Assembly: GCA_013360595.1 (NCBI GenBank)
Contig: JABWBJ010000003.1
Location: forward strand, 1-32,929
DNA: 32,929 nucleotides
DNA from: Gemmatimonadaceae bacterium
GTDB lineage: Bacteria; Gemmatimonadota; Gemmatimonadetes; Gemmatimonadales; Gemmatimonadaceae
Reading direction: 5' to 3'
The notes beneath the pieces were generated by a model. The model did not search any database, had not been told where the DNA came from, and saw only the letters and a program-made list of their open reading frames with translations. Every line of letters starts with the position of its first letter. Positions within the stretch are counted from its first letter, which is position 1. The position numbers and the translations under genes were made by a program. Below, in pieces: positions 2 to 15,205 of this stretch.

Positions 2-1054
2 GCATTCCTCGTCCATCCCTGGACCTCCTTGCACCCGGCGCGACTCCGCGCCGTAATGAAATATCGGCAATCAAGCAGGTTTTGGGATAGGCTCTTAGCG
101 GTGCTCGGCGCCGCCATTTGTCTCCTTTCGACGGCCGGCATTTGGCGCTGGGTTCGCTGCCCAATTCGAGTACTCGTTGATTGCATGCGTTCCGTTCAAA
201 GAAGGCAACTCGGCACCCGCGCGCAGCCAACCGGCCCACCGGAAACGCGATTCCTCGCTGCGAGTTTCAATGAAATGATCGAGAGCCTCGATCGACACGA
301 ACGCGACCGAATTCAGGAATTGCAGCGCGCGCGTCAGATTCAGGAACGACTGCTCCCGACCACCAACATCGTGATACCCAATACGCGAATCACGTTTCAA
401 TATGCGCCGGCGGAGCCCATCGGCGGGGATTATTTGGACGTCTTTCAATCCGATGGCGGTCGGTGGTTGATCGCCATCGCCGATGTTTGCGGCCACGGTG
501 TTGCGGCCGCTTTGCTCGCAACCTTGTTCAAAACGCACGTACGTAATCAGGCCGCCGTACGTTCGTCTCCAAGTGACATCCTGCACGTGGTAAACAGCCA
601 GCTCTGCTCAATTATGTCTGACGGGGAATTCATAACATGCCTGCTCGGTTTCTACGATGCCCACGCTGGGACTCTTGATTACGTAAACGCCGGGCACCCT
701 CCTGGCCTCATCGTAAACACGGACGGCCGTCTTGTCTCGCACTTGGAAACTACATCATCCGTCTTGGGTGTGTGGCCCAGCACCGCGATCGAATCGGGTG
801 AGGCAATCCTTCGCGCAGGTGACCGACTAGTTCTCTACACAGATGGGCTGGTTGAGTGCCTCGACTCTTCTGAACGGCTATTTGGGAACGAGCGCCTCGC
901 CCAGGCCATTGCGCGGACGGCAACCGTCGATCCAATGGAACAAATCACGCAATTGTTGAGGGAGGCTCGCATCTTTTCAGCCGCCGGTCGGATGGTAGAT
1001 GACGTAACGGTCCTCATACTTCAGAGGAATCCAGATCCCCCATCTGCAGAATGA
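2..1054 (+). CDS. HAMP-linked PP2C/SpoIIE-type serine phosphatase (partial, 5' end outside window)
   Basis: The reading frame is open from the first complete codon of the window, so the gene starts upstream; the TTG at 29 is only the first possible start inside the window. The visible part holds a membrane segment (codons for LLAVLGAAICLLSTAGIW, about 90-155), a HAMP-like linker, a short coiled coil (RDRIQELQRARQIQERLLP) and a PP2C_SIG/SpoIIE phosphatase domain with the metal-binding signatures GGDYLDVF, ADVCGHG, AGHPP, LVLYTDGLVE and DDVTVLIL. Family knowledge: RsbU-like phosphatases dephosphorylate anti-sigma-antagonist proteins in partner-switching stress or developmental signalling. Here the lost N-terminus probably contains a periplasmic sensor. 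G+C is clearly lower than in the genes at 13-18 kb (33 of 60 bases at 61-120 against 47 of 60 at 15,721-15,780). No partner STAS or anti-sigma gene is visible. Confidence 0.9.
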   Translation, partial: AFLVHPWTSLHPARLRAVMKYRQSSRFWDRLLAVLGAAICLLSTAGIWRWVRCPIRVLVDCMRSVQRRQLGTRAQPTGPPETRFLAASFNEMIESLDRHERDRIQELQRARQIQERLLPTTNIVIPNTRITFQYAPAEPIGGDYLDVFQSDGGRWLIAIADVCGHGVAAALLATLFKTHVRNQAAVRSSPSDILHVVNSQLCSIMSDGEFITCLLGFYDAHAGTLDYVNAGHPPGLIVNTDGRLVSHLETTSSVLGVWPSTAIESGEAILRAGDRLVLYTDGLVECLDSSERLFGNERLAQAIARTATVDPMEQITQLLREARIFSAAGRMVDDVTVLILQRNPDPPSAE

Positions 1055-1268
1055 TGGATGATGTTGTGACCCCACTCGCCCTTCGGCGCCCCCCGTCTCT
1101 TAATGGGCGACCTGAAATCGCGCCCGCGTCGACGTCGACATGAATCATCTCGGACGTCACGCGCGTTCCGCCCGCGGCGCTGAGCAGTCGCGCCGCTTCG
1201 GCCACGGGCAGCGCCGTGGGATTCAGGGTCAACCTGTTAGGTTGGGTAAGGACATCTCCTGCCATCAT
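1014..1268 (-). pseudogene. Small element protein truncated at the left edge of the element
   Basis: Starts at ATG 1268 (second ATG at 1265), with a good GGGAGG ribosome site just upstream on the minus strand. The first 46 or so residues (MMAGDVLTQPNRLTLNPTAL, then PVAEAARLLSAAGG...VDVDAGA) look like a genuine small protein with a helix-turn-helix-like segment; I recall relatives beginning this way in planctomycete mobile DNA, but cannot verify it here. After DAGA the translation becomes Arg/Gly/Ser-rich and runs tail-to-tail into the end of the phosphatase gene, overlapping it by about 40 bp. This suggests that the natural 3' end was removed near 1,120. It could also be an intact unknown protein; the truncation is an inference. 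Confidence 0.5.
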
Positions 1269-1402
1269 GCCGCCTCCCGCCTGGCTGCCCGCCGCCGGGC
1301 CGCCCACACAGGCCCTTGACAACGCGATGCGTCGTCAAGGGCAGGCAGTCCGTGTGCCTGACATGGCCGAATCTCGCGTCGGTACATGGAAAAGAATCTG
1401 CG

Positions 1403-1418
1403 AATTCCGACCGGAATT
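1403..1418 (+). promoter_or_regulatory. Palindrome AATTCCG-ac-CGGAATT in the leader of the left HARE-HTH operon
   Basis: A perfect 7-bp inverted repeat with a 2-bp centre lies just upstream of the conserved leader at 1425-1462. A related palindrome, CGGAATTCCG at 10,860-10,869, occupies the same relative place before the second HARE-HTH gene. Same spacing and same core suggest an operator for a dimeric regulator; this is inference. Confidence 0.45.
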
Positions 1419-1424
1419 AAGGCC

Positions 1425-1462
1425 AGATTCGCTTGATCCCGTTCGCGGAACTTGCCCTCATG
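1425..1462 (+). repeat. Conserved 38-bp leader, copy 1
   Basis: This stretch contains CGCTTGATCCCGTTCGC and ends in GCCCTCATG. It matches the minus strand of 10,819-10,856 at 36 of 38 bases by eye. Both differences are synonymous if it is read as the peptide IRLIPFAELALM (GCG/GCC for Ala and CTT/CTC for Leu), and in both places the peptide is in frame with the downstream gene. In this copy a TAA stop lies immediately before it at 1418-1420. It is followed by GTACGC-gatgg-GCGTAC, a 6-bp hairpin. It may be a leader peptide, an N-terminal extension or a structured untranslated leader. Confidence 0.6.
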
Positions 1463-1504
1463 TGGGTGTACGCGATGGGCGTACCCAACGCGAAGGAGAA
1501 CGAA

Positions 1505-1714
1505 ATGACGCGAACGAACGAGATGACGACGGACCTTCGAAACCTGCCGGCGGGAACGCTGGTCGTATCCACGCTCGACGGCGAACCAGGGCGGGTCGTC
1601 GAGGCCTGCACGCAGAACCGCAGCCGCACCAAGGCGACGTCCTACGTCGTCCTGACCAACGACGGCCGCGAGATCTGGGATGTCGCGGACATCGTCCTGC
1701 CCCCGAACGACTGA
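1505..1714 (+). CDS. Hypothetical small element protein, 69 aa
   Basis: Not recognised. ATG 1505 was chosen because AAGGAG lies 5-8 bases upstream; an in-frame ATG at 1526 and a TTG at 1433 (which would add the conserved IPFAELALM peptide) are alternatives. The protein reads like a small beta-rich domain: 'LPAGTLVVSTLDGEPGRVVEAC...SYVVLTNDGREIWDVADIVLP', with alternating hydrophobic residues as in SH3- or KOW-like barrels. It is the first gene of a tightly spaced plus-strand operon running to 3390, 18 bp ahead of the next gene. Its leader carries the palindrome and conserved block described separately. No signal peptide or membrane segment is visible. Confidence 0.6.
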   Translation: MTRTNEMTTDLRNLPAGTLVVSTLDGEPGRVVEACTQNRSRTKATSYVVLTNDGREIWDVADIVLPPND

Positions 1715-1732
1715 ACAGAAGGAGCCCAGACC

Positions 1733-1978
1733 ATGACGACGAAGACCAGGAACTGGCCAGCCACGCACGCGTTCGTCGCCGAGGCGCGGTCGGTCGAGCA
1801 GATCCTCGAAGCGGCCCTTCGGACCGTTCGAGAGTTGCGACACGACGAGCTCACGCGGAGCGGCGAGCGAACGCAAACGCACGTCGAGGTAATGAACGCG
1901 GTCCTCGGCCATGTCCAGCTCTTGTGCGAAGCCCTGGCGCCGCTCGACGGCGGCAGGCTGGTGCGGGAGCAGTTGTAG
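1733..1978 (+). CDS. Hypothetical helical protein, 81 aa
   Basis: Not recognised. ATG 1733 has AGAAGGAG about 9 bases upstream. The protein is almost entirely predicted helix: 'ATHAFVAEARSVEQILEAALRTVRELRHDEL' followed by 'THVEVMNAVLGHVQLLCEALAPL', giving two amphipathic helices separated by a polar turn. That is compatible with a small helical-bundle or dimerisation protein. It is second in the operon and followed by a 60-bp leader containing a hairpin, so the next gene may also be separately controlled. Confidence 0.6.
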   Translation: MTTKTRNWPATHAFVAEARSVEQILEAALRTVRELRHDELTRSGERTQTHVEVMNAVLGHVQLLCEALAPLDGGRLVREQL

Positions 1979-1987
1979 TGAAGATCG

Positions 1988-2011
1988 CCGCGTCGCGTGG
2001 ACGCGGCAGAA
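1988..2011 (+). promoter_or_regulatory. Hairpin leader with GTCGCGTGGACGC motif, copy 1
   Basis: CCGCGTC (1988-1994) and GACGCGG (2000-2006) form a 7-bp stem with loop gcgtg, 28 bases before the ATG at 2039. The 20 bases 1992-2011 match the minus strand of 10,783-10,802 at 19 of 20 positions. There they lie 22 bases before the start of the second HARE-HTH gene. In both cases a GGCAGGAG/GCAGGAGG ribosome site follows. This is probably a shared 5' leader inherited with the cassette; a regulatory role is inference. Confidence 0.5.
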
Positions 2012-2038
2012 CAATGTCCTTGCAGGCAGGAGAAGCGT

Positions 2039-2914
2039 ATGAAGAAAGACCAGGTCCAGATTGGCGGGACGTATGTCGCCAAAGTCAGCGGCCAGCTCGC
2101 GCAAGTGCGAATCGATGCGGAGAGCCGGTTCGGTGGGTGGGATGCGACCAACGTCTCGACGCAGCGCAAGGTCCGCATCAAGAGCGCCCAGCGCCTGCGC
2201 CGAGAGACGGCGGCGTCGACGAACACCGAAGCGCCCGCCGCGTCCGACCTGCCACCGCAGGACATCGACGAGCGCATTGCCGCTGCGCCGCCCAGCATCG
2301 TGCCCTACGAACAGCGACGGGCCCGCGCCGAGGCGGCTCAAGTCGAAACGGCCGACGATGCTCCCCAATACGACCCAACCCGCTGCGCGACAAAGCGCTG
2401 CCGGGGTACGCCGGTCATGACCTACCTGGAGCGCCCGATGTGCCAGGCGTGCTGGGACCGGCACTGTGAAGAGGAACAGCCCAGCGAAGTCAGTGAAACG
2501 GCGGGCGACGCGTGTCGCCCGACCGAGGAACAGGAACCCCTTGAACAGGAGAACGCCATGTCCAAGAAGAAGACCAACAAGAAGCAGTCCAAGGCCCAGC
2601 CTGCGGCGGCGAAGGCCAAGCGCGAGAAGAAGGCCGCGACGCCCAAGGTGAAGGCGACGGGCGAGCAGAAGCCGAAGCGCGTCAGCGCCCTCGACGCTGC
2701 CGCGACGGTCTTGAAGAAGGCGGGCAAGCCCATGCACGCCCAGGAACTGATCGCCGCGATGGCCGAGCAGGACCTGTGGAAAAGTCCCGGAGGCAAGACG
2801 CCCCACGCGACGCTGTACGCCGCCATCCTGCGGGAGATCGGCGGCAAGGGCAAAGACGCCCGCTTCCGCAAGGTCGACCGGGGGCAGTTCCAGTTCGCCG
2901 GGAAGGGGAAGTAG
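2039..2914 (+). CDS. Four-cysteine and C-terminal HARE-HTH protein, 291 aa, with possible internal start
   Basis: ATG 2039 follows GGCAGGAG by 8 bases. Three parts are visible. Residues 1-54 (MKKDQVQIGGTYVAKVSG ... RKVRIKSAQRLR) form a small beta-rich domain. Residues 116-138 carry C116-x4-C121-x13-C135-x2-C138, plausible as a zinc-binding knuckle. After an acidic, then Lys/Ala-rich linker, residues about 210-291 form a HARE-HTH winged-helix domain (SALDAAATVLKKAGKPMHAQ, then LYAAILREI and a FRKVDRGQFQF end). HARE-HTH domains occur in RNA polymerase delta, ASXL proteins and restriction enzymes and are thought to bind DNA. An in-frame ATG at 2558 has its own ACAGGAGAA site, and the second copy of the gene (minus, 10,393-10,761) consists only of this last part, so the HARE-HTH part (118 aa) may also be made separately. 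Confidence 0.75.
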   Translation: MKKDQVQIGGTYVAKVSGQLAQVRIDAESRFGGWDATNVSTQRKVRIKSAQRLRRETAASTNTEAPAASDLPPQDIDERIAAAPPSIVPYEQRRARAEAAQVETADDAPQYDPTRCATKRCRGTPVMTYLERPMCQACWDRHCEEEQPSEVSETAGDACRPTEEQEPLEQENAMSKKKTNKKQSKAQPAAAKAKREKKAATPKVKATGEQKPKRVSALDAAATVLKKAGKPMHAQELIAAMAEQDLWKSPGGKTPHATLYAAILREIGGKGKDARFRKVDRGQFQFAGKGK

Positions 2915-2917
2915 CCC

Positions 2918-3199
2918 ATGAACGCCCGGCAACTCCAGGACGCACTCCGCGACCTGCTCGAGGCGGTCATGTTCGCCCGCGATGACGCCGACGACCCGGC
3001 CAATGAACTGGCCGAGCACGTCGAGGGCATTCGCCAGATCGCGACCTATGACGACGTGGGCACGCTCACGCGCGACAAGGGCCTGGTCATCGAGGCCCGC
3101 GACGGCGCGGAGTTCCAGTTGACCATCGTGCAGAGCCGTCCCGCCGCCTGCTCGCCCGCGTGCGACGCATCGGTCGGCGGCGAGGAGGACTCGCGATGA
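2918..3199 (+). CDS. Hypothetical acidic protein, 93 aa
   Basis: Not recognised. It begins 3 bp after the HARE-HTH stop codon, with GGGAAGGGGAAG as ribosome site, so it is translationally linked. The first half is helical and acidic ('ARQLQDALRDLLEAVMFARDDADDPANELAEHVEGIRQIATYDDVGT'), the second half beta-like ('KGLVIEARDGAEFQLTIVQSR'). The tail 'PAACSPACDAS' adds two cysteines. The end overlaps the start of the next gene by 4 bp (ATGA). Confidence 0.6.
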   Translation: MNARQLQDALRDLLEAVMFARDDADDPANELAEHVEGIRQIATYDDVGTLTRDKGLVIEARDGAEFQLTIVQSRPAACSPACDASVGGEEDSR

Positions 3200-3390
3200 A
3201 CGGCAACCACGACGAAGGTCCGGTCGACCCCGTAGCCCAGGAGGACGCCTGTCCGAACTGCGGCGAGCGGGAATCGGACGAACTCGTCTGGCTCGACGAC
3301 GAGCGCGTCGAATGCCAGCGCTGCCGTACAGTCTATCGCCCGGGCGCGCATGCATCCGAGGATGGGCAGACCGACGCATCGTCCGCGTAG
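3196..3390 (+). CDS. Small zinc-ribbon protein, 64 aa
   Basis: Start ATG 3196 overlaps the preceding stop (ATGA) and has GAGGAG just upstream. C19-x2-C22 (CPNCG) and C40-x2-C43 (CQRC), 17 residues apart, make a compact zinc ribbon flanked by acidic sequence. It resembles short zinc-ribbon adaptors common in mobile elements; no specific function can be named. It is the last gene of the operon, and a strong hairpin begins 21 bp downstream. Confidence 0.65.
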   Translation: MNGNHDEGPVDPVAQEDACPNCGERESDELVWLDDERVECQRCRTVYRPGAHASEDGQTDASSA

Positions 3391-3411
3391 CGCCCATCAC
3401 TTCTCCTCCCC

Positions 3412-3438
3412 CAACGCCTCGCAGGTTGCGGGGCGTTG
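3412..3438 (+). terminator. Strong hairpin ending the left small-gene operon
   Basis: CAACGCC-T-CGCA / GGT loop / TGCG-G-GGCGTTG gives a 12-bp stem with one T-G wobble, 21 bp after the stop at 3390. There is no T run, so it may be a transcript-stabilising or non-canonical terminator. The stem begins with CAACGCCTC, like the hairpin at 10,347-10,373 that ends the second HARE-HTH gene. The remaining 297 bp up to 3736 hold no gene I can support. Confidence 0.6.
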
Positions 3439-3735
3439 CTCCGCCATCACATCGCCTTGGATATCCCGCTTCAACAACAGTTGAAACCACCAGAATCATC
3501 GTGTTGTCCATCGCCGCCAGGCCGATCCCCGACGACGTAAGTCGTTGCGGTATGCCGCCTGCCCGCGTAGCCGCCGGTTTATTCCGTCTCCCGCCCGTGC
3601 CCCAAAACGCTGGGAAGGTCCGTAATGCCGAGGTAGAATCAGGACCAGCGGAGGCGCCCCTGGCCACGCCGAAGGGCGAAATCGTTGAGGGCTTGCCCGT
3701 ATCGGCTTCCATGGGGCGCGGGCAGGGGATGGTCG

Positions 3736-5031
3736 ATGCCAGAAAACCATACACACCCCAATGCGGACGAGTTGATGGAACAGCTTGAGGCGGACCTCGC
3801 CGAAGGACGAATCACGCTCGACCAGCTGCGGGAGCGGCTGAAGGCGGATGCAGAACGCCCGATTGACATGGACATGCTTCGCGATTTCTGCGACGCCTAC
3901 GAGCGGCGCGTGTGTGCTTACAGCTCTCTGCTGCGAAGCATCGTGGAAATCGCCACCGACCAGCGTGACTCCGACGCACGGGGCCGCCGCGAAACCGAGG
4001 TCGACGCGCACGTGACCCGCATGACCGCCAAGCTCCCGCTGTGGCAGGAACAGGTCCGCACCGTGCTGGAGTTCTTGACGGAGCTGCGGGCCGACTCGGC
4101 GCAAGGGCCGGTTCGAGTGGGCGACGTGTCACATTCCACGGCGCACCTGCTGGCGGCCTACGTCATGGACGTGGCGGCGCAGGCTTGGGAGAGTTGTAAA
4201 GGCATCGCCCATCGGAGTCGCACCGACCCGCGCTATCTGTACGCCGCCAGCGCGGCGAGGTTGTTTTTCGACGCGCACATGTCGGGTTTGCCCAAGCCGA
4301 ATGACCTGATGGGCTTGTTGCAACTGGAGCGGGCCGCGGCGAGGAAGGCGCTCGGCGACGGGCGCACGACTCGGCAGCGCAGGGCCGAGGATGCCGGCGG
4401 GGGCGTGACTATTCAGACGGAGACGGTAAACGTCACCGGCCAGTCCGTGAGCGTTGCGGCGGAGCAGATCGCGAAGAACGTCTCGATGCAGAAACCTCGC
4501 AAGGAACGCATGAAGCGGGAGGTCGCTGAGCCGTTGATTGCGCACCATCTCATGCAGCGTCCCCACGATACGGCCGCGCAGGTCGCGGAAAAGGTGGGGT
4601 GCAGCGTCGGCGTCGTGGGGGAATCGACGGCGTGGAAACTGAATCAGAGGCGGTTGGAGTTGGCCAGGAAGCAGGGCGTAGACCCGAAGGCGATTGATCT
4701 CACGTACCAGAAGGGCGGCGAGTGGCAGGACGGAATAGAGCTGCTTCCGGATGATCGCAGCGCCGATCCGTCGGACCTGGCCGCCGAACGTGAGCAGGAA
4801 CTCTTTCGGCGAATCGGCGAATACGCGCAGGACCATCCCGATGCCACGCCGGAACAGGTCGCAAGGGCACTGCGTGAATTCGGATGCACCGCAGGCGATG
4901 TGGAGCGTCGACAGGCCGAGCTGAATCGTTTGATCGCCCAGCAGTCCGACGACCATCAGGAAGACATCGACGTGGAAGACCCCGATACGAAGCACGGCAC
5001 ACGGCGAAAGTGGGTGCAGAAGCGCCCCTGA
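3736..5031 (+). CDS. Unknown 431-aa element protein with HTH-like segments
   Basis: Not recognised. ATG 3736 (MPENHTHPNADELMEQLEAD) was preferred because AGGGGAT lies just upstream; the longer frame from 3685 has no ribosome site. The protein is soluble and mostly helical. Residues about 8-140 are acidic helices. A middle part (about 215-250) is followed by a HTH-like unit at about 278-305 (DTAAQVAEKVGCSVGVVGES). A second, similar unit lies at about 375-400 (TPEQVARALREFGCTAGDVE). Both have the pattern 'A-QVA--(V/L)--GC--G-V', as if duplicated. This suggests a DNA-binding protein, perhaps for replication, partition or regulation of the element, but nothing in the sequence decides. It stands alone: a hairpin precedes it and a palindrome and terminator follow. 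Confidence 0.65.
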   Translation: MPENHTHPNADELMEQLEADLAEGRITLDQLRERLKADAERPIDMDMLRDFCDAYERRVCAYSSLLRSIVEIATDQRDSDARGRRETEVDAHVTRMTAKLPLWQEQVRTVLEFLTELRADSAQGPVRVGDVSHSTAHLLAAYVMDVAAQAWESCKGIAHRSRTDPRYLYAASAARLFFDAHMSGLPKPNDLMGLLQLERAAARKALGDGRTTRQRRAEDAGGGVTIQTETVNVTGQSVSVAAEQIAKNVSMQKPRKERMKREVAEPLIAHHLMQRPHDTAAQVAEKVGCSVGVVGESTAWKLNQRRLELARKQGVDPKAIDLTYQKGGEWQDGIELLPDDRSADPSDLAAEREQELFRRIGEYAQDHPDATPEQVARALREFGCTAGDVERRQAELNRLIAQQSDDHQEDIDVEDPDTKHGTRRKWVQKRP

Positions 5032-5037
5032 TCTGTC

Positions 5038-5057
5038 GTTCATGAATATTCATGAAC
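5038..5057. promoter_or_regulatory. Perfect 20-bp palindrome GTTCATGAATATTCATGAAC
   Basis: A fully symmetric 10+10 bp palindrome begins 7 bp after the stop of the 431-aa gene, in AT-rich sequence that stands out from the GC-rich surroundings. It lies 7 bp before a rho-independent terminator. Symmetry and base composition suggest a binding site for a dimeric HTH protein, a partition or resolution site, or a second transcript-end hairpin. Confidence 0.6.
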
Positions 5058-5063
5058 TCGGTG

Positions 5064-5096
5064 ACGGCCTTGGCGGCTGTGCCAGGGCCGTTTTTT
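5064..5096 (+). terminator. Rho-independent terminator
   Basis: ACGGCC-T-TGGC / loop GGCTGT / GCCA-G-GGCCGT followed directly by a six-T run (5091-5096). An 11-bp stem with one T-G wobble. It ends the transcript of the 431-aa gene. Confidence 0.92.
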
Positions 5097-5176
5097 ACCT
5101 CCTGACGTGAATGCCCGGCGATACGCGGAGAGGCGCGAAGGGGAATGGTCCCCTTCCCGGCGCGAGGGGCATTCCG

Positions 5177-5392
5177 ATGACCACCCAACCGCCGAAGCTG
5201 GTCACGGTCGGGGTGATCGCGGCCGAATTGGGCGTACCCGTGGATCGGGTCTGCCGCATTTTGCGGCTGCGAACGCATATCAAGCCGCGCGCCTACGCCG
5301 GCAACACCCGTCTGTTTGACAACGCGGCCATCGCACAGGTGCGGCATGAGCTCAACGCCATCGCCGCGCGCCGCGCCGGGGGCTGCCAATGA
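5177..5392 (+). CDS. MerR/excisionase-like HTH protein, 71 aa
   Basis: ATG 5177 was chosen with GAGGGG about 8 bases upstream. Residues about 8-60 follow the layout of a minimal MerR-type or excisionase winged helix: 'LVTVGVIAAELGVPVDRVCR' as helix-turn-helix, then 'AYAGNTRLFDNAAIAQVRHEL' as wing and closing helix (usually 'G-xx-RxY'). In an integrative element with a serine recombinase it is a natural candidate for a recombination directionality factor or a local repressor; that is inference. It overlaps the next gene by 4 bp (ATGA). Confidence 0.7.
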   Translation: MTTQPPKLVTVGVIAAELGVPVDRVCRILRLRTHIKPRAYAGNTRLFDNAAIAQVRHELNAIAARRAGGCQ

Positions 5393-5583
5393 CGACGGCC
5401 CCCGAGCCGGTAGAGACCGTTGCCGGGATGGCGCTGGGCATCGCTGTGGCAGAGCATTCGCGCGAGGCCGCCGAGCGCTGGGCGCGGCGCGCGGAACTCC
5501 TGGCCGGCTGGCTTTTCGCAGCGTGGCGCCGGGAGCAGGAGCAGGCTGGGGTGATGGTTGTCCAGGAGCACAACTTGAATTGA
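5389..5583 (+). CDS. Hypothetical helical protein, 64 aa
   Basis: Not recognised. Overlaps the preceding gene by 4 bp, so it is translationally coupled. One long predicted helix (ETVAGMALGIAVAEHSREAA then ERWARRAELLAGWLFAAWRR) with Trp/Leu on one face suggests a membrane-associating or dimerising small protein. No signal sequence. Confidence 0.5.
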   Translation: MTTAPEPVETVAGMALGIAVAEHSREAAERWARRAELLAGWLFAAWRREQEQAGVMVVQEHNLN

Positions 5584-5676
5584 TTCCGGTCGTTCACGGA
5601 ACCCGCCAACCGGCCCGCTGGCCGACCGGAAGGCGGGAAGTCAAGAGGCCAAGGTCAGCGAGGATGAGTGAGACCT

Positions 5677-6297
5677 ATGCACATATTCACGGACGAACCA
5701 CGGGACCTCAGGCTCCTCGATCTGCGCGGTCTGACGCCGCTAAACCCCGAGATGGCCGCGGGAGAACCGGAACTGCTGGCCATGATCGAAGGGCACAACG
5801 ACCGCTGTGGCCGCGCGGCGGCGCGGCTACGGCAACTGGCCGCCGATCGCCGCCGACTCTCCGATTTCGCCGCCTGCGAGCGCATGGGCGGCACAACGCT
5901 GCTGGCCGAGCGGGCGCGTCTGCGCGGCGAGAGCTGGGATGCGCTGTGGGAAGCCCGGCATGCACTCGAGGAGCGCGAGGACATGTTGCAACAGCTCGAG
6001 CATCGGCTGCGGGAGCAGTACGACGAGGCCGTAGGTCACCACGATCAGGCGGTCGAGACCGCAAAGCGGCGCTTGGTGAAGGAGCGCCGCGCGCTCCAAG
6101 CAGTCAATCCGACAAACGCGGAGGGGCACTTTCATGATTTCGTTGCCGCCGACGAGTCCGTTCGCGAGGCGGCGAGGCGACAAAGCGCCGCAGGCCAGGC
6201 CCTGAATGACATCGCCGAGGCGAAGCGCGGCGTCATCGCCGACCGCAGCACCGTCACCACGCGGCAGCGCGAGGTGTTCGCATTGCTGACGCGTTGA
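5677..6297 (+). CDS. Coiled-coil hypothetical protein, 206 aa
   Basis: Not recognised. ATG 5677 (MHIFTDEPRDLRLLDLRG) has GCGAGGATGAG upstream; GTG 5668 is an alternative three codons earlier. After a short non-helical start, residues about 30-205 are almost uninterrupted charged helix (LRQLAADRRRL, ALEEREDMLQQLEHRLREQ, AVETAKRRLVKERRALQ), a strong coiled-coil signature without membrane segments or cysteine motifs. It lies in the same transcript direction as the primase, about 70 bp ahead of the next gene. Confidence 0.6.
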   Translation: MHIFTDEPRDLRLLDLRGLTPLNPEMAAGEPELLAMIEGHNDRCGRAAARLRQLAADRRRLSDFAACERMGGTTLLAERARLRGESWDALWEARHALEEREDMLQQLEHRLREQYDEAVGHHDQAVETAKRRLVKERRALQAVNPTNAEGHFHDFVAADESVREAARRQSAAGQALNDIAEAKRGVIADRSTVTTRQREVFALLTR

Positions 6298-6368
6298 ATC
6301 AGCGCCTGGCTCGACAAGGCATTGGCCGGGGGACATCAACAAAACTGGTACATACACGGGAGGTAGTG

Positions 6369-6797
6369 ATGAAGAGTGGGTATCGCCTACGCAGCCACAC
6401 CGTGGCCATGCCGGCGCCACCAAGCGCGCCGCCGTCGTATGTTCTTTGGAAGGAGCGCAACGGGACGTGGCACGTTGATGGTCCGCATCCGGTCGCTGCA
6501 ATCCTGATCGGGTGCGAGGAACTCTCCGCTCCGGCTCGCCTTCGCGCATCTCAACGACGCACGCCCAGCGGAAAGGAAATCACGCACCGGGAGGTCGACT
6601 TCGAGGACGAGTTCGCGGAACGGCACTTTGAGGGCGCCCACTGGAGATACGTTCCAATTGCCTTCGTACTGCTGCCGGCACACTGCGCGGAGTGGGAAAG
6701 CATCATCGTGCCTCAAGCGGAAATCGCATTCTCCGAAGAGGCCGCAAAGGCCATCGCCGAACGGCGCAATTCTGAGCGCGGAAGGAATCATGGCTGA
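6369..6797 (+). CDS. Hypothetical protein preceding the primase, 142 aa
   Basis: Not recognised. ATG 6369 (MKSGYRLRSHTVAMP) follows a GGGAGG site. The mixed alpha/beta protein has Trp/Tyr-rich segments 'SYVLWKERNGTWHVDGPHPV' and 'RHFEGAHWRYVPIAFVLLP'. It overlaps the primase start by 8 bp, so the two are probably co-translated. It may be a partner of the primase, but no motif proves it. Confidence 0.6.
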   Translation: MKSGYRLRSHTVAMPAPPSAPPSYVLWKERNGTWHVDGPHPVAAILIGCEELSAPARLRASQRRTPSGKEITHREVDFEDEFAERHFEGAHWRYVPIAFVLLPAHCAEWESIIVPQAEIAFSEEAAKAIAERRNSERGRNHG

Positions 6798-9087
6798 ACT
6801 CCTCGAAAGAGCACTGGATTACCGCGAGGCGGGGTTGTGCGTCCTGCCAGCGATCCGCGATGAGAAACGCCCGGCGCTTCCAACCTGGAAGCAGTACCAG
6901 CATCGGCTCCCCACTCCCCAGGAATTGGCGACCTGGTTCCGCAATGGCAGCGCCGCCTGCCTGATTGCCGGCGCCGTCTCCGGCAATCTGGAGATGATCG
7001 ACTTCGACTTGGGGGGCGAGTCGTTCGAGCCGTGGGCGGACATCGTCCGCCAGCGCGCCCCCGGGCTGCTGGAGCGCCTGGTCGTCGAGCAATCTCAATC
7101 GGGCGGGCGGCACGTCGTCTATCGCTGCTCCGGTCGGGTCAATGGCAACCTGAAACTGGCACAGCGCGCCGTGGAGGCGCCCGACGACCGACCGGTTGTA
7201 CTTCATGGCAAATCCTACCAGCCGCGGCGATGCACTGACCGCTGGCTCGTGATCGTGACGTTGATCGAGACGCGCGGCGAGGGCGGGCTGTTCCTCTGCG
7301 CCCCATCGCCTGGATATGAGTTGATCCAGGGGGAATTCACGGCGCTGCCGGTGCTCACCGAGTACGAGCGGCTGACATTGCTTGACGCCGCGTGGAGCCT
7401 GAATGAGTGGGTTGAAAGGGTTGAGTCCCCGCAGAACGGGCGCGTCGCCGGCGATCGGCCGGGCGACGAGTACAACCGCCGCAACGACCCCCGCGAGGTT
7501 CTATGCCGCCACGGCTGGGCGCTCGTGCGCGAAGGCGAAAACGAGTACTGGCGTCGACCGGGTAAGACCGATGGCTACAGCGCGACGCTCAAGGACGGCG
7601 TCTTCTATGTCTTCACGTCCAACGCCCCGCCGTTCGAGCCAAACCGCGCCTACGCGCCGTTTGCGGTCTACGCGTTGCTGGAGCATGACGGGGACTTCGC
7701 CGCGGCTGCGATCGCGCTGCGTTCCCAGGGATTCGGCGATAACGGCGATGCGCCCGACGGCGGTGTCGACCTGAGCGCCCTCACAGGAAGCGATCCCGAC
7801 CTGCGAGAGCCGACGGCGCCGCCATTGCCAGATCCCGGCCCGCTGCCTGACGAGCTGCTGCGCGTGCCTGGCTTTGTCGGCGAGGTCATGGACTACTGCC
7901 TTGCGACCGCGCCGTACCCCAACCCGGTCATGGCCTTCTGCGGCGCGCTGGCCATCCAGGCGTTCCTGGCGGGCCGGCGAGTGCGTGATCCGGCGGACAA
8001 CCGCACGAACATCTACCTGCTCGGCTTGGCGCACTCGGCGGCGGGCAAGGACCACCCGCGTAAGGTCAATACGCGCATCGCCCACGAAGTGGGCGTGGCA
8101 GAATACATTGGCGACCGTTTCGCATCCGGTGAAGGCGTCCAGGATGCGCTGTTCGTTAATCCCTGCATGCTGTTCCAGACTGACGAGATCGACGGGATGC
8201 TCCAGTCGATCAACAAGGCCAAGGACGCCCGGCATGAAAACGTCATGAGCACGTTGCTCACGATGTACTCGGCGTCCAACAGCGTCTTCCCCATGCGCCG
8301 CAAGGCGGGCAAGCCGTCGCCGGGCGTGATCGACCAGCCCAACCTGGTCATATTCGGAACAGCCATCCCCAATCACTACTACGAGGCCCTGTCGGAGCGG
8401 ATGCTCACCAACGGATTCTTCGCCCGCATGGTGATCCTCGAATCCGGCCCGCGTACCAGCGGACAGGAGCCGCGAATCGCCGCTCTGCCCCCACGCGTCA
8501 TCGAGACGGCTCACTGGTGGGCCGACTTCCGACCGGGACGCGGCAATCTTCAGGATTGGCATCCAGCACCCGCCATCGTCGAAGCGACCGACGACGCAAT
8601 GACCCTGCTGGTCGAAACGCGCAAGGAAGCCGAGGCGGAATACAGCAAGGCCGAGGCTGGCAGCGATCCGGTTGGCACGACCGTGTGGGGCCGCGTCAGC
8701 GAGCAGGTCCGCAAGTTGGCGCTGCTGTACGCAATCAGCGAAAGCCACCGCGCGCCGCGCATCGGGTTGGAGGCAGTGGAGTGGGCCTCGCGTTTCGTGC
8801 TGCACCAGACGCGCCGCATGTTGTTCATGGCTTCCAGCCATGTTGCGGATAGCGAATTCGACGCCGACTGCCTGAAGGTAATCGGCAAGCTCCGTGCCTC
8901 GCCGAACCTGACGCTGAGCCACAGCAAACTCCTCAAGCGGATGAAACGCAAGAGCACGGAACTGGATGAAATCATGAAGACGCTGATTCTGCGTGGGGAC
9001 GTGGAACCCGTCTCCGATCAGCGTACCGGCCCCGGGCCGAAGGCTGTCAGCTACCGGCTGCGGGTGAATGGTTCCGGTGAAGAGTGA
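6790..9087 (+). CDS. Bifunctional Prim-Pol and DUF3987 primase-helicase, 765 aa
   Basis: ATG 6790 (MAELLERALDYREAGLCVLP) follows GGAAGGAATC. Residues about 5-200 are a primase/polymerase (Prim-Pol) domain: the catalytic D71-F-D73 in 'EMIDFD', the motif 'SGGRHVVYRC' and a later basic strand. Residues about 350-650 match DUF3987: a P-loop-like 'HSAAGKD' with K420, an acidic Walker B 'FQTDEID' (D465, E466) and the downstream 'LTNGFFARMVILE' with a possible arginine finger. The end (about 680-765) looks like a winged helix. Such fusions prime and unwind plasmid and phage DNA, so this is the likely replication initiator or helicase of the element. The iteron-like repeats start within its last codons, which supports a replication module. 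Confidence 0.88.
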   Translation: MAELLERALDYREAGLCVLPAIRDEKRPALPTWKQYQHRLPTPQELATWFRNGSAACLIAGAVSGNLEMIDFDLGGESFEPWADIVRQRAPGLLERLVVEQSQSGGRHVVYRCSGRVNGNLKLAQRAVEAPDDRPVVLHGKSYQPRRCTDRWLVIVTLIETRGEGGLFLCAPSPGYELIQGEFTALPVLTEYERLTLLDAAWSLNEWVERVESPQNGRVAGDRPGDEYNRRNDPREVLCRHGWALVREGENEYWRRPGKTDGYSATLKDGVFYVFTSNAPPFEPNRAYAPFAVYALLEHDGDFAAAAIALRSQGFGDNGDAPDGGVDLSALTGSDPDLREPTAPPLPDPGPLPDELLRVPGFVGEVMDYCLATAPYPNPVMAFCGALAIQAFLAGRRVRDPADNRTNIYLLGLAHSAAGKDHPRKVNTRIAHEVGVAEYIGDRFASGEGVQDALFVNPCMLFQTDEIDGMLQSINKAKDARHENVMSTLLTMYSASNSVFPMRRKAGKPSPGVIDQPNLVIFGTAIPNHYYEALSERMLTNGFFARMVILESGPRTSGQEPRIAALPPRVIETAHWWADFRPGRGNLQDWHPAPAIVEATDDAMTLLVETRKEAEAEYSKAEAGSDPVGTTVWGRVSEQVRKLALLYAISESHRAPRIGLEAVEWASRFVLHQTRRMLFMASSHVADSEFDADCLKVIGKLRASPNLTLSHSKLLKRMKRKSTELDEIMKTLILRGDVEPVSDQRTGPGPKAVSYRLRVNGSGEE

Positions 9088-9300
9088 AAAGTTGCCCCCA
9101 GTTGGACCGGTTGCCAGAGAACTATTCGGGAACTCTTCACCCCCGCGGGGTGAAAAGTTGGAGCGGCGAAAAGGGCAGGAAAATAAAGGAAAAACAACAA
9201 CTCTCTCTAACTATTCTACTTTTCACTCCGGCCCCCTCGCGCCACCCTTTTCCTGCCCGTATGCGCGTGTATGCGAGGGGGGGTGAAAAGTGAAAAGTTG
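9077..9300. repeat. Iteron-like repeat cluster, candidate origin of replication
   Basis: The 18-mer GTGAARAGTGAAAAGTTG occurs at 9077-9094 and 9283-9300 (one base different), each containing two overlapping units GTGAA(A/G)AG. A single unit, GTGAAAAGTTG, lies at 9150-9160. An inverted unit lies at 9218-9226 (ACTTTTCAC), and another inverted variant inside the hairpin at 9131-9141. The area between contains an A-rich tract (about 9178-9200) and a pyrimidine tract (9201-9224), unusual in this GC-rich DNA. Repeats, an AT-rich stretch and the position directly behind a primase-helicase gene are the classical makeup of an iteron-controlled origin; the assignment is inference. It is not a CRISPR array: units are short and spacers irregular. 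Confidence 0.65.
9131..9159. other. Hairpin in the iteron region
   Basis: AACTCTTCACCCC (9131-9143) and GGGGTGAAAAGTT (9147-9159) form a 13-bp stem with one mismatch around CGC. It incorporates two iteron units in opposite orientation. It may act as terminator of the primase gene, as part of the origin, or both. Confidence 0.55.
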
Positions 9301-9319
9301 CGAAAAGGATGGTTTACGC

Positions 9320-9685
9320 ATGGATGCACGGTGCTTCGATTGCCGGTTCTTCTGTCCCGGTGACTACAAGATGGTAGACGACCTGACGGAGCAGGATTGG
9401 GACGAAGGCCTCGAAGGTGAATGTCGCCGGAATCCGCCCTGCGTCGGGCGGTTTCGCGGGGAGGATGAACACCTCCAGTACGACTATGGGCAGTGGCCTC
9501 TCGTCCAAGCCGTCAACTGGTGCGGCGCATTTGAGCCGTGCCGCAGGGCGCTAAGTCTCAACGACGGACTCACGCGCACCCTGGGTCCAGATCGTGTTGT
9601 GGACAGCAAGGTTGCCGATGATCCGAATCCGTCGCCGCGACCTGCCGCGGATCAGCAGGACATCGCCACGACGGAGGAGACGTGA
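9320..9685 (+). CDS. Cysteine-rich small protein, 121 aa
   Basis: ATG 9320 (MDARCFDCRFF) was chosen, with AAAAGGA about 12 bases upstream. GTG 9290 would add ten residues, but its codons coincide with the last iteron. Cysteines are arranged as C-x2-C-x3-C, then 'ECRRNPPC', then 'WCGAFEPC', with 'WPLV' before the last group. I recall small phage and plasmid proteins with this 'C..C / RxPP / WP.V / WCGxF' plan and suspect zinc or iron-sulfur binding; the function is unknown. The last 40 residues are polar and probably disordered. No regulator motif is evident. Confidence 0.65.
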   Translation: MDARCFDCRFFCPGDYKMVDDLTEQDWDEGLEGECRRNPPCVGRFRGEDEHLQYDYGQWPLVQAVNWCGAFEPCRRALSLNDGLTRTLGPDRVVDSKVADDPNPSPRPAADQQDIATTEET

Positions 9686-9820
9686 ACCGCGCCATCTGTG
9701 CCCTTGATGGCATGGGTCCTACCAGGGCCAAGCGGCCGCCGAGGCCCGCGGAACCCACCACAAAACCCATTTGAGTTTATTTGTTGAAGCGCCGCATAGG
9801 TGGATGGGAGACACAAACGC

Positions 9821-10381
9821 ATGGAAACACAAGTAAAAGACCTCCCGATCAACCGCGACCGCAAGTTGACCGCCCCTGCGGCGCTGGACCGCCTGCTGGA
9901 CATGATGAAGCGGTGGTGGGAAGGCGAGAGCTTGGCCGATATTGCCCGCGCCTACGGCATCAGCCGCCAGCGGGTCGGGAGCATTCTGGCCAAGGTCGGC
10001 TGTACCGCCGCCCTTCGGCGCATGACAGACCAAGAGCGGCCCGATTCCAGCCGGCGTGGATGGCGGCACGGCATGGAAAAGGCGCGGAAGGCACTACTCC
10101 ATCCCTTGGCCCACCGCCTCACCGTTCGCCAGCGGGCAGCCCTGGCTTGGCAAGCCCAGAGCCTGGCGCTGCCGGATATCGCCCGGCGGATGCGGGCTAC
10201 CTCGCAGAATGTTCGTGGCCTTCAAGTGGCGGGGCATTGGCGGCTGGAGCGGCTGACCAAGCGGGAGATGCCGAACGACAGCATCGACATCGGGATGATC
10301 GAATGGGGCGAGGTCGCGCGATGGCCTGAAACGAACCCTGACCGGACCAACGCCTCCACAACGGAGGCGTTGGCGAAGTGA
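9821..10381 (+). CDS. Regulator with two sigma-region-4-like HTH motifs, 186 aa
   Basis: ATG 9821 (METQVKDLPINRDRK) was preferred over 9800; GGGAG lies about 11 bases upstream. The first HTH is at about residues 30-60: 'RWWEGESLADIARAYGISRQ' followed by 'RVGSILAKVG'. A second is at about 103-137: 'LTVRQRAALAWQAQSLALPD' followed by 'IARRMRATSQNVRGL'. Both have the sigma-70 region 4/LuxR-like 'I-A-----S---V' spacing, and the second begins with the 'LT-RQR' typical of that fold. This suggests a DNA-binding regulator of the element rather than a full sigma factor, since no region 2 is present. It is convergent with the second HARE-HTH gene, 11 bp apart. Confidence 0.7.
   Translation: METQVKDLPINRDRKLTAPAALDRLLDMMKRWWEGESLADIARAYGISRQRVGSILAKVGCTAALRRMTDQERPDSSRRGWRHGMEKARKALLHPLAHRLTVRQRAALAWQAQSLALPDIARRMRATSQNVRGLQVAGHWRLERLTKREMPNDSIDIGMIEWGEVARWPETNPDRTNASTTEALAK
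10347..10373. terminator. Hairpin between convergent genes
   Basis: CCAACGCCTCC (10347-10357) and GGAGGCGTTGG (10363-10373) form a perfect 11-bp stem with loop acaac, inside the last codons of the two-HTH gene and about 20 bp past the stop of the opposing HARE-HTH gene. There is no T run. The stem shares CAACGCCTC with the hairpin at 3412-3438. Confidence 0.6.
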
Positions 10382-10392
10382 TTGAGACGTCT

Positions 10393-10761
10393 CTAAGTGT
10401 TGAATTGGAACAGCCCGCGGTCAGTCTTCTTGAACCGGGCGGCGCTGCCCTTGTCCCGCGCCTCGCGGAGCATTCCGGCGTACAACGTGGCCCAAGGGGT
10501 CGCGCCTGCGGGGCTCCGCCACAGGCCCCGCTTCGCCAGCGCGGCGATCAGTTCCTGGGCGTGCATGGGCTTACCGGCCTTCTTCAAGACCGTCGCGGCG
10601 GCGTCAAGAGCGCTGACGCGCTTCGGCTTCGTCTCGCCGGCGGGCTTCTTCACCTTGGTCACCGTGGCGCTGGCTTTGGTCTTGGGCGTCGCCGCTTTGG
10701 TTTTGCCGACCGCCGCCTTGGCGGCGGTCTTCTTCGTCTTCGTTTTCTTCTTCGCGCTCAT
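10393..10761 (-). CDS. HARE-HTH protein, second copy, 122 aa
   Basis: ATG 10761 has a strong GCAGGAGG site. Residues 1-45 are a Lys/Ala-rich tail (MSAKKKTKTKKTAAKAAVGK and onward) like those of histone-like nucleoid proteins. Residues about 48-122 are the HARE-HTH winged helix (SALDAAATVLKKAGKPMHAQ ... FKKTDRGLFQF). It is closely similar, also at DNA level, to the last 118 residues of the protein encoded at 2039-2914. The frame stays open upstream of the ATG through the conserved IPFAELALM leader, so a longer product is possible. It is divergent from the serine recombinase, with which it shares a 187-bp promoter region. Confidence 0.82.
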   Translation of the reverse strand: MSAKKKTKTKKTAAKAAVGKTKAATPKTKASATVTKVKKPAGETKPKRVSALDAAATVLKKAGKPMHAQELIAALAKRGLWRSPAGATPWATLYAGMLREARDKGSAARFKKTDRGLFQFNT

Positions 10762-10782
10762 GGTTCGCCTCCTGCGGTACGT

Positions 10783-10802
10783 TTCTGCGGCGTCCACGCG
10801 AC
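10783..10802 (-). promoter_or_regulatory. Leader motif GTCGCGTGGACGC, copy 2
   Basis: 19 of 20 bases match 1992-2011. Its first bases also form the perfect palindrome ACGCGACGTCGCGT with the adjoining sequence. It lies 22 bases before the HARE-HTH ATG. Confidence 0.5.
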
Positions 10803-10818
10803 GTCGCGTTGTCAGCCC

Positions 10819-10869
10819 CATGAGGGCGAGTTCGGCGAACGGGATCAAGCGAATCTTGCCGGAATTCCG
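10819..10869 (-). repeat. Conserved 38-bp leader, copy 2, with GGAATTCC palindrome
   Basis: The minus strand of 10,819-10,856 matches 1425-1462 at 36 of 38 bases. Upstream of it CGGAATTCCG (10,860-10,869) corresponds to the AATTCCG/CGGAATT palindrome at 1403-1418. The peptide reading IRLIPFAELALM is in frame with MSAKKK at 10,761. Being in the divergent intergenic region, it could influence both the HARE-HTH gene and the recombinase. Confidence 0.6.
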
Positions 10870-10948
10870 CAGAAAAATGTGGCCCCAGCGGCCTTGACTT
10901 GGAGGGACCCTTGAGGGAAGGGAGTGGTCAGTGACGGAAGGACGAAAC

Positions 10949-12904
10949 ATGCATGCGAACGCCAAGGTGCCCGCCGTGGCCTACCTGCGAAGGTCAACCG
11001 ACCGGCAGGAACAAAGCATCGGCGACCAGCGGGCCGCCGTTCGTCGCTGGGCCGATGAGCACGGATATGAAATCGCCCGCGAATTCATCGATGATTCAAT
11101 CAGCGGGACTTCGGCGGACGAGCGCCCGGCCTTTCAGAACATGATCGCCGACGCGCAGCGTGGCGAGTTCAAGGCGGTGATCGTCTGGAACTCGGACCGG
11201 TTCTCGCGTGGCGACATCACTGAAACGGAATACCACCGCTACCTTCTTCGCAAGGCCGGCGTGGTGGTGCTGTCGGTCACCGAGGACTTCTTGGGCCGCG
11301 ACGGAATCGACGGCGATGTGCTGCGAACGGTCAGACAATTCCAGAATCGTCAATTCTCGGTTTCGTTGGCGCAGAATACGTTGCGCGGCCAGCTCAGCGC
11401 GGTGATGGCGAAATCGGACCCCGGCCGCGCTCCGCCTTTCGGCTACGACCGCGAGGTCGCTGCGCCAGACGGCTCGGTCATGTTCCGCATCCGCTTCTGT
11501 CCCGGCCGCGTGCGCGAGGTCTACGACAAGGACAGCAAGCTCCAGGCCTGCTACGCCAAGGGGCAATCGCTGAAGAAGCCGGGCAAACAGTGCCGGGCGC
11601 GGCTGGTGCTCTCCGACCCGCAGCGCGTGCAGGTCGTCAAGGACATCTTCCGCATGTGCCTGGACGGCGTGGGCTTCGCCTCCATCGCCGCCGACCTGAA
11701 TGCCCGCGGCATTCCCGCGCCCTGTCAGGACCATTGGAACTTCACGACGGTCAAGGCGATTCTTGAGAACCCGACGTATTGCGGCTGCCTTGTATGGAAC
11801 CGCCGGACCGAGGCGAAGTTCTTCAGGCTCCAGAACGGCCGGACCGAAGAGCGTCGGCGGCAGGCCAGCGAGGCCAAGGTGGTCAAGACGCCGAAGGCGG
11901 ATTGGATCGTCATCCCAGATTCGGTGCCCGCGATCATTCCGAAAGAGGATTGGGAGAAAGTCCAGGTGCTTGTGGCCAAGCGCCGGCGGGCGGTCGGCGG
12001 AGCCGGGCATCGCAATCGCCGCTGGCTGCTGACAGGCGTGATGGTCTGTGGCGACTGCGGCCACAAGTTCTGGGGCGCGCCCTGCCACAAGGGCCGCATC
12101 GAAGGCAGGGCTGCGGTCGTCACCAATTACTACAAGTGCGCCGGCCGAGGCTCACATGGCAAGACCATCTGCGCGACGCCATCGACCCTTCGCGCCGAGC
12201 CGTTGGAATCCTGGGTGCTGGGCAAGCTCCAGAAGATCGTCCTGGCCGACGAGGAGGCGCTTGACGAGGCCATCGAGCTGTTCGTCGAGCAGGCGGCGCG
12301 GAGGGATCACGGCGCCACCGACGCCGACCGGATCGCCCGCGAAATCAAGGAGGTCGGCGATCTGGTGACGGCGCTGACCATGAACATTGACGTGGCGAAC
12401 TTGTCGCTGCTCAACGATCGGCTGACGCAACTGCGGCTTCGCAAGGAATGCCTGGAACGCGAGCTGAACCTGGCCCGGCAGGAAAAGAGTCATCCCAATG
12501 TCGGTACGTTGCGGACGTGGGCGCGAAACCAACTGGCCGGCCTCCACGACGCGATGGCCGGCACGCGCAACGATCGGACGCGCGACGTGATGGGAACATA
12601 CGTGGATCGGATCATCGTCTGGCCATCGCAACGCCGAGGCGAGTTGCGCTTGAACCCCGCCGCCGCGCCGCTCTGGAAACAGCACGACCGCCCCGAAGGA
12701 CGGTCGCGTAATAACCCAATCGGGGCGACAGGACTCGAACCTGCGACCTTCTGCACCCCATGCAGACGCGCTAGCCAGACTGCGCCACGCCCCGGATTCT
12801 CCGCAACTATAGCCCGTGATCGGTCATGTAACAAGCTCGGGGGGCGAGGGACGCTGGATCGTTGCAGCGCGTCGCCGGCGGCGAGCGTCAATCCCGCTCG
12901 CTGA
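10949..12904 (+). CDS. Large serine recombinase (integrase), 3' end fused to host DNA
   Basis: ATG 10949 (MHANAKVPAVAYLRRSTDRQ) is preceded by GGAAGG. Residues about 8-150 are the resolvase domain: Y-L-R-R-S16 gives the catalytic serine, followed by 'DDSISGT' and 'WNSDRFSR'. Then come a recombinase domain (about 215-320, 'GVGFASIAADLNARGIP', 'ILENPTYCG'), a zinc ribbon ('MVCGDCGHKF' to 'KTICATPS', about 360-410) and a coiled coil (about 450-510). The natural C-terminus seems to lie near 'RIIVWPSQRRGELRLNP' (codons to about 12,660). The remaining 75-80 residues translate the tRNA-Pro terminator and the antisense of the tRNA ('GATGLEPATF', a familiar artefact) and have no protein-like character. 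It is likely responsible for integrating and excising this element, with the attachment site at or near its own 3' end. Confidence 0.9.
   Translation: MHANAKVPAVAYLRRSTDRQEQSIGDQRAAVRRWADEHGYEIAREFIDDSISGTSADERPAFQNMIADAQRGEFKAVIVWNSDRFSRGDITETEYHRYLLRKAGVVVLSVTEDFLGRDGIDGDVLRTVRQFQNRQFSVSLAQNTLRGQLSAVMAKSDPGRAPPFGYDREVAAPDGSVMFRIRFCPGRVREVYDKDSKLQACYAKGQSLKKPGKQCRARLVLSDPQRVQVVKDIFRMCLDGVGFASIAADLNARGIPAPCQDHWNFTTVKAILENPTYCGCLVWNRRTEAKFFRLQNGRTEERRRQASEAKVVKTPKADWIVIPDSVPAIIPKEDWEKVQVLVAKRRRAVGGAGHRNRRWLLTGVMVCGDCGHKFWGAPCHKGRIEGRAAVVTNYYKCAGRGSHGKTICATPSTLRAEPLESWVLGKLQKIVLADEEALDEAIELFVEQAARRDHGATDADRIAREIKEVGDLVTALTMNIDVANLSLLNDRLTQLRLRKECLERELNLARQEKSHPNVGTLRTWARNQLAGLHDAMAGTRNDRTRDVMGTYVDRIIVWPSQRRGELRLNPAAAPLWKQHDRPEGRSRNNPIGATGLEPATFCTPCRRASQTAPRPGFSATIARDRSCNKLGGRGTLDRCSASPAASVNPAR
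12685..12706 (-). terminator. Terminator hairpin of tRNA-Pro
   Basis: On the minus strand CGACCGTCC-TTCG-GGGCGGTCG is a 9-bp stem (one wobble) closed by a UUCG tetraloop, 14 bases after the tRNA 3' end. On the plus strand it lies inside the apparent recombinase frame, which argues that host sequence begins left of 12,685. Confidence 0.75.
12720..12794 (-). tRNA. tRNA-Pro (anticodon GGG)
   Basis: The full cloverleaf can be drawn on the minus strand. The acceptor stem CGGGGCG/CGCCCCG has 7 of 7 pairs with discriminator A (12,720). The D arm is GCGC...GCGC. The anticodon stem TCTGC/GCAGA encloses loop ATGGGGT (T33, GGG anticodon, G37). The T arm is GCAGG-TTCGAGT-CCTGT. The C1 start and GGG anticodon identify proline. 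No CCA is encoded. The gene is intact and directly abuts the integrated element. Confidence 0.96.
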
Positions 12905-13277
12905 CGCCTGCCCCCGCGAAGGCACGGAGCTTCGCGGCTCTGAATGACGCGCCGGTCGCGCCGATCGGATTCGCACGGGCTGGAACTCCGCGGCGCCGGG
13001 AGCCGTGCGATTGGCGACGGGCGGGATGCCCGTACCACCCGGAAACAGCCGGGGGACGCTGGGCCGCATCACTCATGCCCCGGGGCCACTCCCGGGGGAG
13101 CGACACGGCGTCACCGCCGAGGGCGGCTGTGCTAGATTTTCAGCCGGGGCCGGACTTGGCATCTATGGAACGCGGGCAAGCACGTGGCGGATGGATCCCG
13201 CTCGCTGACGCTTCGCGGCTCTGAATCGCACGGGCTGCAAGCCCGTGCCACGCGGACACAGCCGGGGGCGGCCAGGC
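12891..13277. repeat. Two copies of a palindromic interspersed repeat
   Basis: The gap between the tRNA and the desulfurase gene holds no gene. 'ATCCCGCTCGCTGACGC' followed by 'TTCGCGGCTCTGAAT' and 'CGCACGGGCTG' occurs in a longer, interrupted copy from 12,891 and a compact copy from 13,195. Each copy ends in a hairpin: ACGGGC-gggat-GCCCGT (13,017-13,033) and GCACGGGC-tgcaa-GCCCGTGC (13,228-13,248). In both a CCAC...ACAGCCGGGGG tail follows. Such 'CGGGC...GCCCG' units are, as far as I recall, frequent in planctomycete intergenic DNA, like REP or MITE-type repeats. Confidence 0.65.
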
Positions 13278-13284
13278 TACAGGG

Positions 13285-14457: not shown

Positions 14458-14587
14458 GGGGTTGGTCCGTCGTAGTGGTTCAGCCGTCATTATAGGCGAT
14501 CCGGGCGGCACTCCCGCCATCGAGCATCGAGGCCAACGGAACCGTTCTCGCGTGGAAAAACAAGCTGATTTGCGGTATGAACACGTG

Positions 14588-15145: not shown

Positions 15146-15205
15146 CCGACGCGCGCCGGATGCCTACGCTTTGAATGGGGCGGCGGAGGCAAGCAGAAGG
15201 TAATC

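Follow-up and report, generated by a model that had tools for sequence, protein, structure and literature searches.

A conserved 38-bp block at the head of HARE-HTH operons in planctomycete prophages, a probable phage-family-specific promoter

Introduction

Two leaders in the window (the whole stretch of 32,929 nt analysed here) share a short block of DNA that is nearly identical between them. A first inspection made from the letters alone, the sequence-only reading, had proposed that this block is translated, as a leader peptide or a shared N-terminus, that selection acts on the DNA or RNA itself, and that it may be a regulatory leader. This raises the question of what is being conserved, and for which genes the block might work. 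Here, we address it by comparing the window copies with those found in related prophages.

Results

Two copies in duplicated gene cassettes

The reported 36 of 38 shared bases were recovered by comparing 1425-1462 on the plus strand with 10856-10819 on the minus strand, with mismatches at block positions 23 and 29; the chance expectation of such a pair in the window is ~1e-10. Copy 2 is inverted (minus strand), which the sequence-only reading had left unstated, and the two cores (Table 1) are 9.4 kb apart. Homology extends beyond the cores and resumes in two further stretches, one of 26 nt ahead of the HARE-HTH genes (1986-2011 / 10808-10783, 88%) and one of 247 nt within these paralogous genes (2650-2896 / 10648-10402, 78%). 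Since the similarity runs on into the HARE-HTH genes, the two places are paralogous, duplicated gene cassettes. The block is more conserved than the genes themselves (P ~0.005 for at least 36/38 given 77.8% identity), and a search of the same genome with an 18-mer, allowing up to two mismatches, returned only these two copies.

Table 1. Features of the window around the two copies of the block.
Feature	Position	Strand	Remarks
TerS-like ORF, truncated, divergent	1119..1322	-	start codon probably 1268; truncated at residue 68
57-nt extended homology, copy 1	1412..1468	+	88%; CGGAATT just 5' of core
Conserved core, copy 1	1425..1462	+	AGATTCGCTTGATCCCGTTCGCGGAACTTGCCCTCATG; CTTGAT 1432-1437, TTGCCCTCATG 1452-1462
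Hairpin A, GTACGC-GATGG-GCGTAC	1468..1484	+	directly 3' of core; stem in 14/14 aligned copies, loop variable
Shine-Dalgarno AAGGAG for ATG at 1505	1493..1498	+	read from sequence
p69, 69-aa small protein	1505..1714	+	first gene of copy-1 operon; no Pfam match
81-aa protein	1733..1978	+	second operon gene; weak DUF6894, E 0.0011, below Pfam cut-off
Hairpin B, GCCGCGTC-GCGTG-GACGCGGC	1987..2007	+	before HARE-HTH gene; seen there with or without core
HARE-HTH protein 1, 291 aa	2039..2914	+	PF05066, E 6.2e-12
Prim-Pol/DUF3987 primase of the element	6790..9087	+
Protein with two weak Sigma70_r4-like HTH stretches	9800..10381	+	homologues in L079, L015
HARE-HTH protein 2, 122 aa	10393..10761	-	directly 3' of core copy 2; PF05066, E 4.2e-09
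Hairpin B equivalent	10787..10807	-	between core copy 2 and HARE-HTH 2; one A-C mismatch
57-nt extended homology, copy 2	10813..10869	-	88%; partner of 1412-1468
Conserved core, copy 2	10819..10856	-	upstream of second HARE-HTH gene; divergent from integrase
Large serine recombinase (integrase), divergent	10931..12904	+	75 bp from core copy 2; Resolvase, Recombinase, Zn_ribbon_recom
tRNA-Pro(GGG)	12720..12794	-	overlaps 3' end of recombinase ORF; probable right end of element

A planctomycete prophage in a chimeric contig

Window positions 714-17989 are 99.99% identical to the planctomycete contig WYBU01000067, whereas 18900-21700 match G001, a relative from the assigned genus (79% over 2.8 kb), in which 13285-17980 has no match. 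A PQQ-type ORF is broken off at the joint, and WYBU01000067 continues it. These alignments show a chimeric contig with its joint at 17,989/17,990, the left part corresponding to WYBU01000067 and the right part to G001, and the block pair thus falls in the planctomycete part. This chimerism accounts for the lack of any copy in the 59 other relatives of the assigned genome that were searched.

At 1119, midway through the terS-like ORF, the similarity of all relatives to the window ends; homologues of this gene are intact in relatives, for example at locus L081, and its missing part was not found within the window. No structural genes were recognised from 1119 to the serine recombinase, and we read the stretch from 1119 to ~12720 (~11.6 kb) as a mosaic prophage, defective or of satellite size, that holds two HARE cassettes. 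Placed near both ends of the element and facing inward, the cassettes probably derive from two related phage lineages; the first is divergent from the truncated terS-like gene and the second from the integrase. Close to the tRNA-Pro gene, on its right, are imperfect direct repeats (12959-13277).

Two fixed boxes and a free spacer

Further copies were gathered by exact and relaxed pattern scans of IMG/VR contigs, planctomycete MAGs and whole genomes reached from those. The resulting comparison set, from IMG/VR contigs and planctomycete MAGs (one such MAG source carries a Nevskiales label), comprises 27 copies with 21 distinct 38-mers; one further copy was read beyond these 27. A Nevskiales-labelled contig, WYBE01000031.1 (L023/L080/L081), bears two planctomycete-type prophage leaders and is probably misbinned.

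The motif CTTGAT (block positions 8-13) is invariant in 21/21 distinct copies, as are positions 28, 30-34 and 36-38 of a second box, T-N-GCCCTCATG. Position 35 has a single variant (CCCTGATG in L062), the box being otherwise fixed as T-N-GCCCT-[C/G]-ATG. Positions 17-19 (GTT) are almost invariant, and the 8-nt spacer at positions 20-27 varies freely at a constant box-to-box distance. There are no indels among the 27 copies, although the search patterns themselves favoured indel-free copies. Two fixed boxes, a free spacer and the lack of indels bear out the suggestion that selection acts on the DNA or RNA itself. The earlier suggestion of a regulatory leader is supported as well.

A weight matrix run over ~288 kb of related DNA returned 26 sites. 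All of them score at least 36, the range from 14 to 36 is empty, and after shuffling the highest score is 0.1; these sites also served to train the matrix, and a few loci among the ~288 kb overlap. Each phage locus has one site and the window has two. A host-wide promoter was rejected on the ground of these counts, with only two sites in the genome itself and one per phage elsewhere. In a class-wide genome sample the block was present in 5/397 genomes (up to three mismatches), and in a phylum-wide sample G062 alone matched the relaxed pattern exactly, so that the element seems limited to a narrow group. Searches of plasmid and phage collections gave no relevant DNA match; one record, Virus Rctr197k, was hit at the protein level, by the HARE protein and within its N-terminal domain only.

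A non-coding block

As the sequence-only reading had stated, both window copies translate to IRLIPFAELALM, their differences being silent, and the block is in frame with the following start (ATG 1505 for copy 1, ATG 10761 on the minus strand for copy 2). The wider set does not bear out translation. Codon differences from copy 1 in this frame, counted over the 21 distinct copies, are 22 synonymous and 60 replacing, compared with 26:82 for random single changes, and thus show no bias to silent changes. Third codon positions are fixed within the two conserved boxes, and the spacer varies at first and second ones. Further copies also break the reading frame: L062 has a TGA in frame within the block, L012 and L048 have a TGA at most five codons past it, and in L061 the block and its gene are in different frames. 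Taken together, the lack of silent bias, the stops and the frame shift of L061 indicate that a peptide is not what selection keeps.

What follows the block is instead a start codon with a Shine-Dalgarno-like sequence, 39-72 nt 3' of it in 26/27 copies; in the remaining one a contig end cuts the sequence. The distances are 39, 42, 57, 63, 69 or 72, all multiples of three, in 25/26 copies and 56 in the exception (L061); the copies being related, these distances are not independent.

Constant downstream genes and changing upstream modules

A HARE-HTH-family gene lies downstream in 24/25 copies with at least 700 nt available; L086 has the block and no HARE gene within the next 3.5 kb. Two small genes separate the block from the HARE-HTH gene at copy 1 and none at copy 2. 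Homologues of p69 occupy the same place at L010, L079, L080, L081, L084 and L085, and p69 is the first operon gene in many relatives. Both window HARE genes belong to PF05066, scoring 46.2 and 37.1 bits against a gathering threshold of 25.9.

The tailed prophage at L081 shows the complete arrangement. One side encodes a TerS-like protein and, in an overlapping gene, a gpA-type terminase large subunit, together with the portal, the head protease and decoration proteins; the other has p69, HARE, ParB/methyltransferase, primase and helicase. Between these divergent sides, in the intergenic region, is the block, which points to the p69/HARE side. Among the loci the upstream neighbours vary: a terS-like gene with gpA-type TerL, a Zn-ribbon/HNH/Terminase_4 module, another divergent gene, an integrase or genes in the same direction, several loci being too short upstream for their module to be classified. 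Within one host genome, G368, an identical core and downstream gene stand behind different upstream packaging modules, and the block therefore belongs to the downstream operon and not to a cos site. Upstream of the core, only a short GGAATT is conserved across the swapped modules.

A separate stretch of ~70 nt 5' of the core, at 1342-1411 (GGCAGTCCGTGTGCCTGAC...CGAATCTCGCGTCGGTACATGGAAAAGAATCTGCG), is conserved only in loci with a terS-like gene. It may serve as a cos/packaging site or in the control of terS, and is a better cos candidate than the core.

Leader hairpins

In 14/14 aligned copies of one class the order is core, GTACGC-5 nt-GCGTAC, Shine-Dalgarno-like sequence and ATG. The stem of this hairpin A is practically invariant in them, with one G-U change and zero double changes; because it never covaries, it could be a DNA operator (palindrome) instead of an RNA hairpin. 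Hairpin B precedes the HARE gene where that gene directly follows the core, and also inside the copy-1 operon. In its alignment 92.5% of the cells are paired, G-U changes are tolerated and the pair 15-31 is swapped from C-G to G-C in two copies. Double changes occur at three pairs, two of them fed by row L088; since this row is probably misaligned, only the swap at columns 15-31 is solid.

Some leaders carry additional hairpins. L011 has an extra one within the leader hairpin loop, L042/L037 have a hybrid leader, and REP-like small hairpin repeats (CCTGCC...GGCAGG) are inserted in the leader hairpin loop at L011:1000-1045(-), L019:1900-1960(-) and L078:8710-8770.

Two structural ideas about the core were rejected. 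Its pairing with the Shine-Dalgarno region (GTTCGC with GCGAAC-like complements, in the window copies) is lost, by eye, in L015, G368 and L050, and a common fold of core and leader is contradicted by RNAfold structures that differ between copies, with mostly weak z-scores. An Rfam search of 1000-13000 with E up to 1 returned tRNA only and no structured-RNA family, and no terminator-like T-run follows the copy-1 hairpin.

Comparison with known promoter classes

No site of the sigma-70 consensus (TTGACA - 16-18 nt - TATAAT, at least 9/12) was found in 1100-2100 or 10380-11000, and the block read as TTGATN-N17-CCTCAT matches the sigma-70 second box in 3/6 only. The sigma-32 promoter consensus is CTTGAA-N13-17-CCCCATNT (PMC4263515). 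The first box of the block, CTTGAT, is one base off and its second box is C-rich with CAT; however, that second box is CCCTCATG, the spacing to CCTCAT is 18, outside 13-17, and there are no heat-shock genes downstream, so that this is a resemblance only. The Sigma70_r4-like protein at 9800-10381 was rejected as an obligatory activator, being absent from 3/5 leader-bearing genomes (E 0.001; the MAGs are incomplete).

Discussion

Two boxes that keep their spacing, stand where an operon begins and have little conserved upstream of them across swapped modules are best explained by a promoter. We thus propose that, in a family of planctomycete tailed temperate phages, the 38-bp block probably acts as promoter of the HARE-HTH operon and possibly includes an operator; that it is cis-regulatory in a wide sense is very likely. 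RNA polymerase, alone or with a putative phage-specific factor, would read CTTGAT and GCCCTCATG, 17-18 nt apart, and transcription would start a few bases past the second box. The mRNA would then open with the hairpin leader, and after it would come the Shine-Dalgarno sequence and the small gene that heads the operon. Each gene comes with a hairpin of its own: small first genes have type A, the HARE gene has type B. As the sole protein that accompanies the block almost always, the HARE protein would be the best candidate for feedback on it. Some features sit uneasily with a promoter. Its second box lacks TATAAT, conservation as strong as this is unusual and atypical of an ordinary promoter, and the multiple-of-three start distances in 25/26 copies are odd for an untranslated leader, although the copies are related.

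Part of the same evidence could be read differently if the block belonged to a transcribed 5' leader RNA, an attenuator or a protein-binding RNA, with the promoter further upstream and translation or termination as the target of core and hairpin. Hairpins do lie between core and Shine-Dalgarno sequence in nearly all copies, and type B, whose pairing survives G-U changes and a double change, also occurs at 1987-2007, a probably transcribed site within the operon. The core, however, has no consistent fold, neither an Rfam match nor a T-run 3' of the copy-1 hairpin points to such an RNA, and, with upstream conservation limited to GGAATT, no conserved upstream promoter remains; we regard this alternative as unlikely. 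A translated leader peptide or shared N-terminus would fit the silent differences of the window pair, the frame open into the next gene and the multiple-of-three distances, and is made highly improbable by a synonymous to replacing ratio like that of random changes, by the stops in or shortly after the block and the out-of-frame copy, and by the unrelated families among the downstream proteins.

The position of the block suggests two further explanations, in which it would serve the DNA itself. Phages with a TerL of the lambda gpA type have cos upstream of terS. The block likewise adjoins terS/terL in many loci, lying between these genes, with a TerL of this very type, and the divergent operon, one copy per phage locus; a cos/packaging site or other cis site of DNA processing is nevertheless a poor candidate, as the core is kept with the unrelated gpA/TerS-like and HNH/Terminase_4 modules, occurs without an adjoining terminase in copy 2 and L025, faces a nearby start codon to which it is tied, and has little dyad symmetry. 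The last point also weighs against terminal inverted repeats or recombination sites of a mobile element, for which the inverted copies near both element ends and the proximity of copy 2 to the serine recombinase could be invoked. Here the similarity extends into paralogous genes, pointing to a duplicated gene cassette, and other phages have one copy with no recombinase found beside it, which leaves this explanation the faintest of those considered.

The promoter reading agrees with what is found in phage-family-specific promoters: a short two-box site at an operon head with constant spacing, followed by hairpin and Shine-Dalgarno sequence, and confined to one phage family. It differs from them in that its boxes, CTTGAT and GCCCTCATG, are not the sigma-70 consensus. 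We file the block as a phage-family-specific promoter-leader, ordinary in kind and new as an example; the literature searched held no such promoter or regulatory element of planctomycete phages. Owing to its sharp signature at the start of one operon, with no scores between 14 and 36, it is a tool for finding these prophages.

HARE-HTH proteins (PF05066) include the RNA polymerase delta subunit. Both window downstream genes score above the family cut-off, whereas in these phages an action of the HARE protein on the block is a candidate role. We raise as a tentative and rather doubtful extension that a phage-specific transcription system recognises the block, with the HARE-HTH protein binding or redirecting host RNA polymerase at its own promoter. 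The block offers a defined DNA target for testing the role of the HARE-HTH protein and, if true, such an action on the host polymerase would be a form of phage control not described before, in a phylum whose phages have been studied very little.
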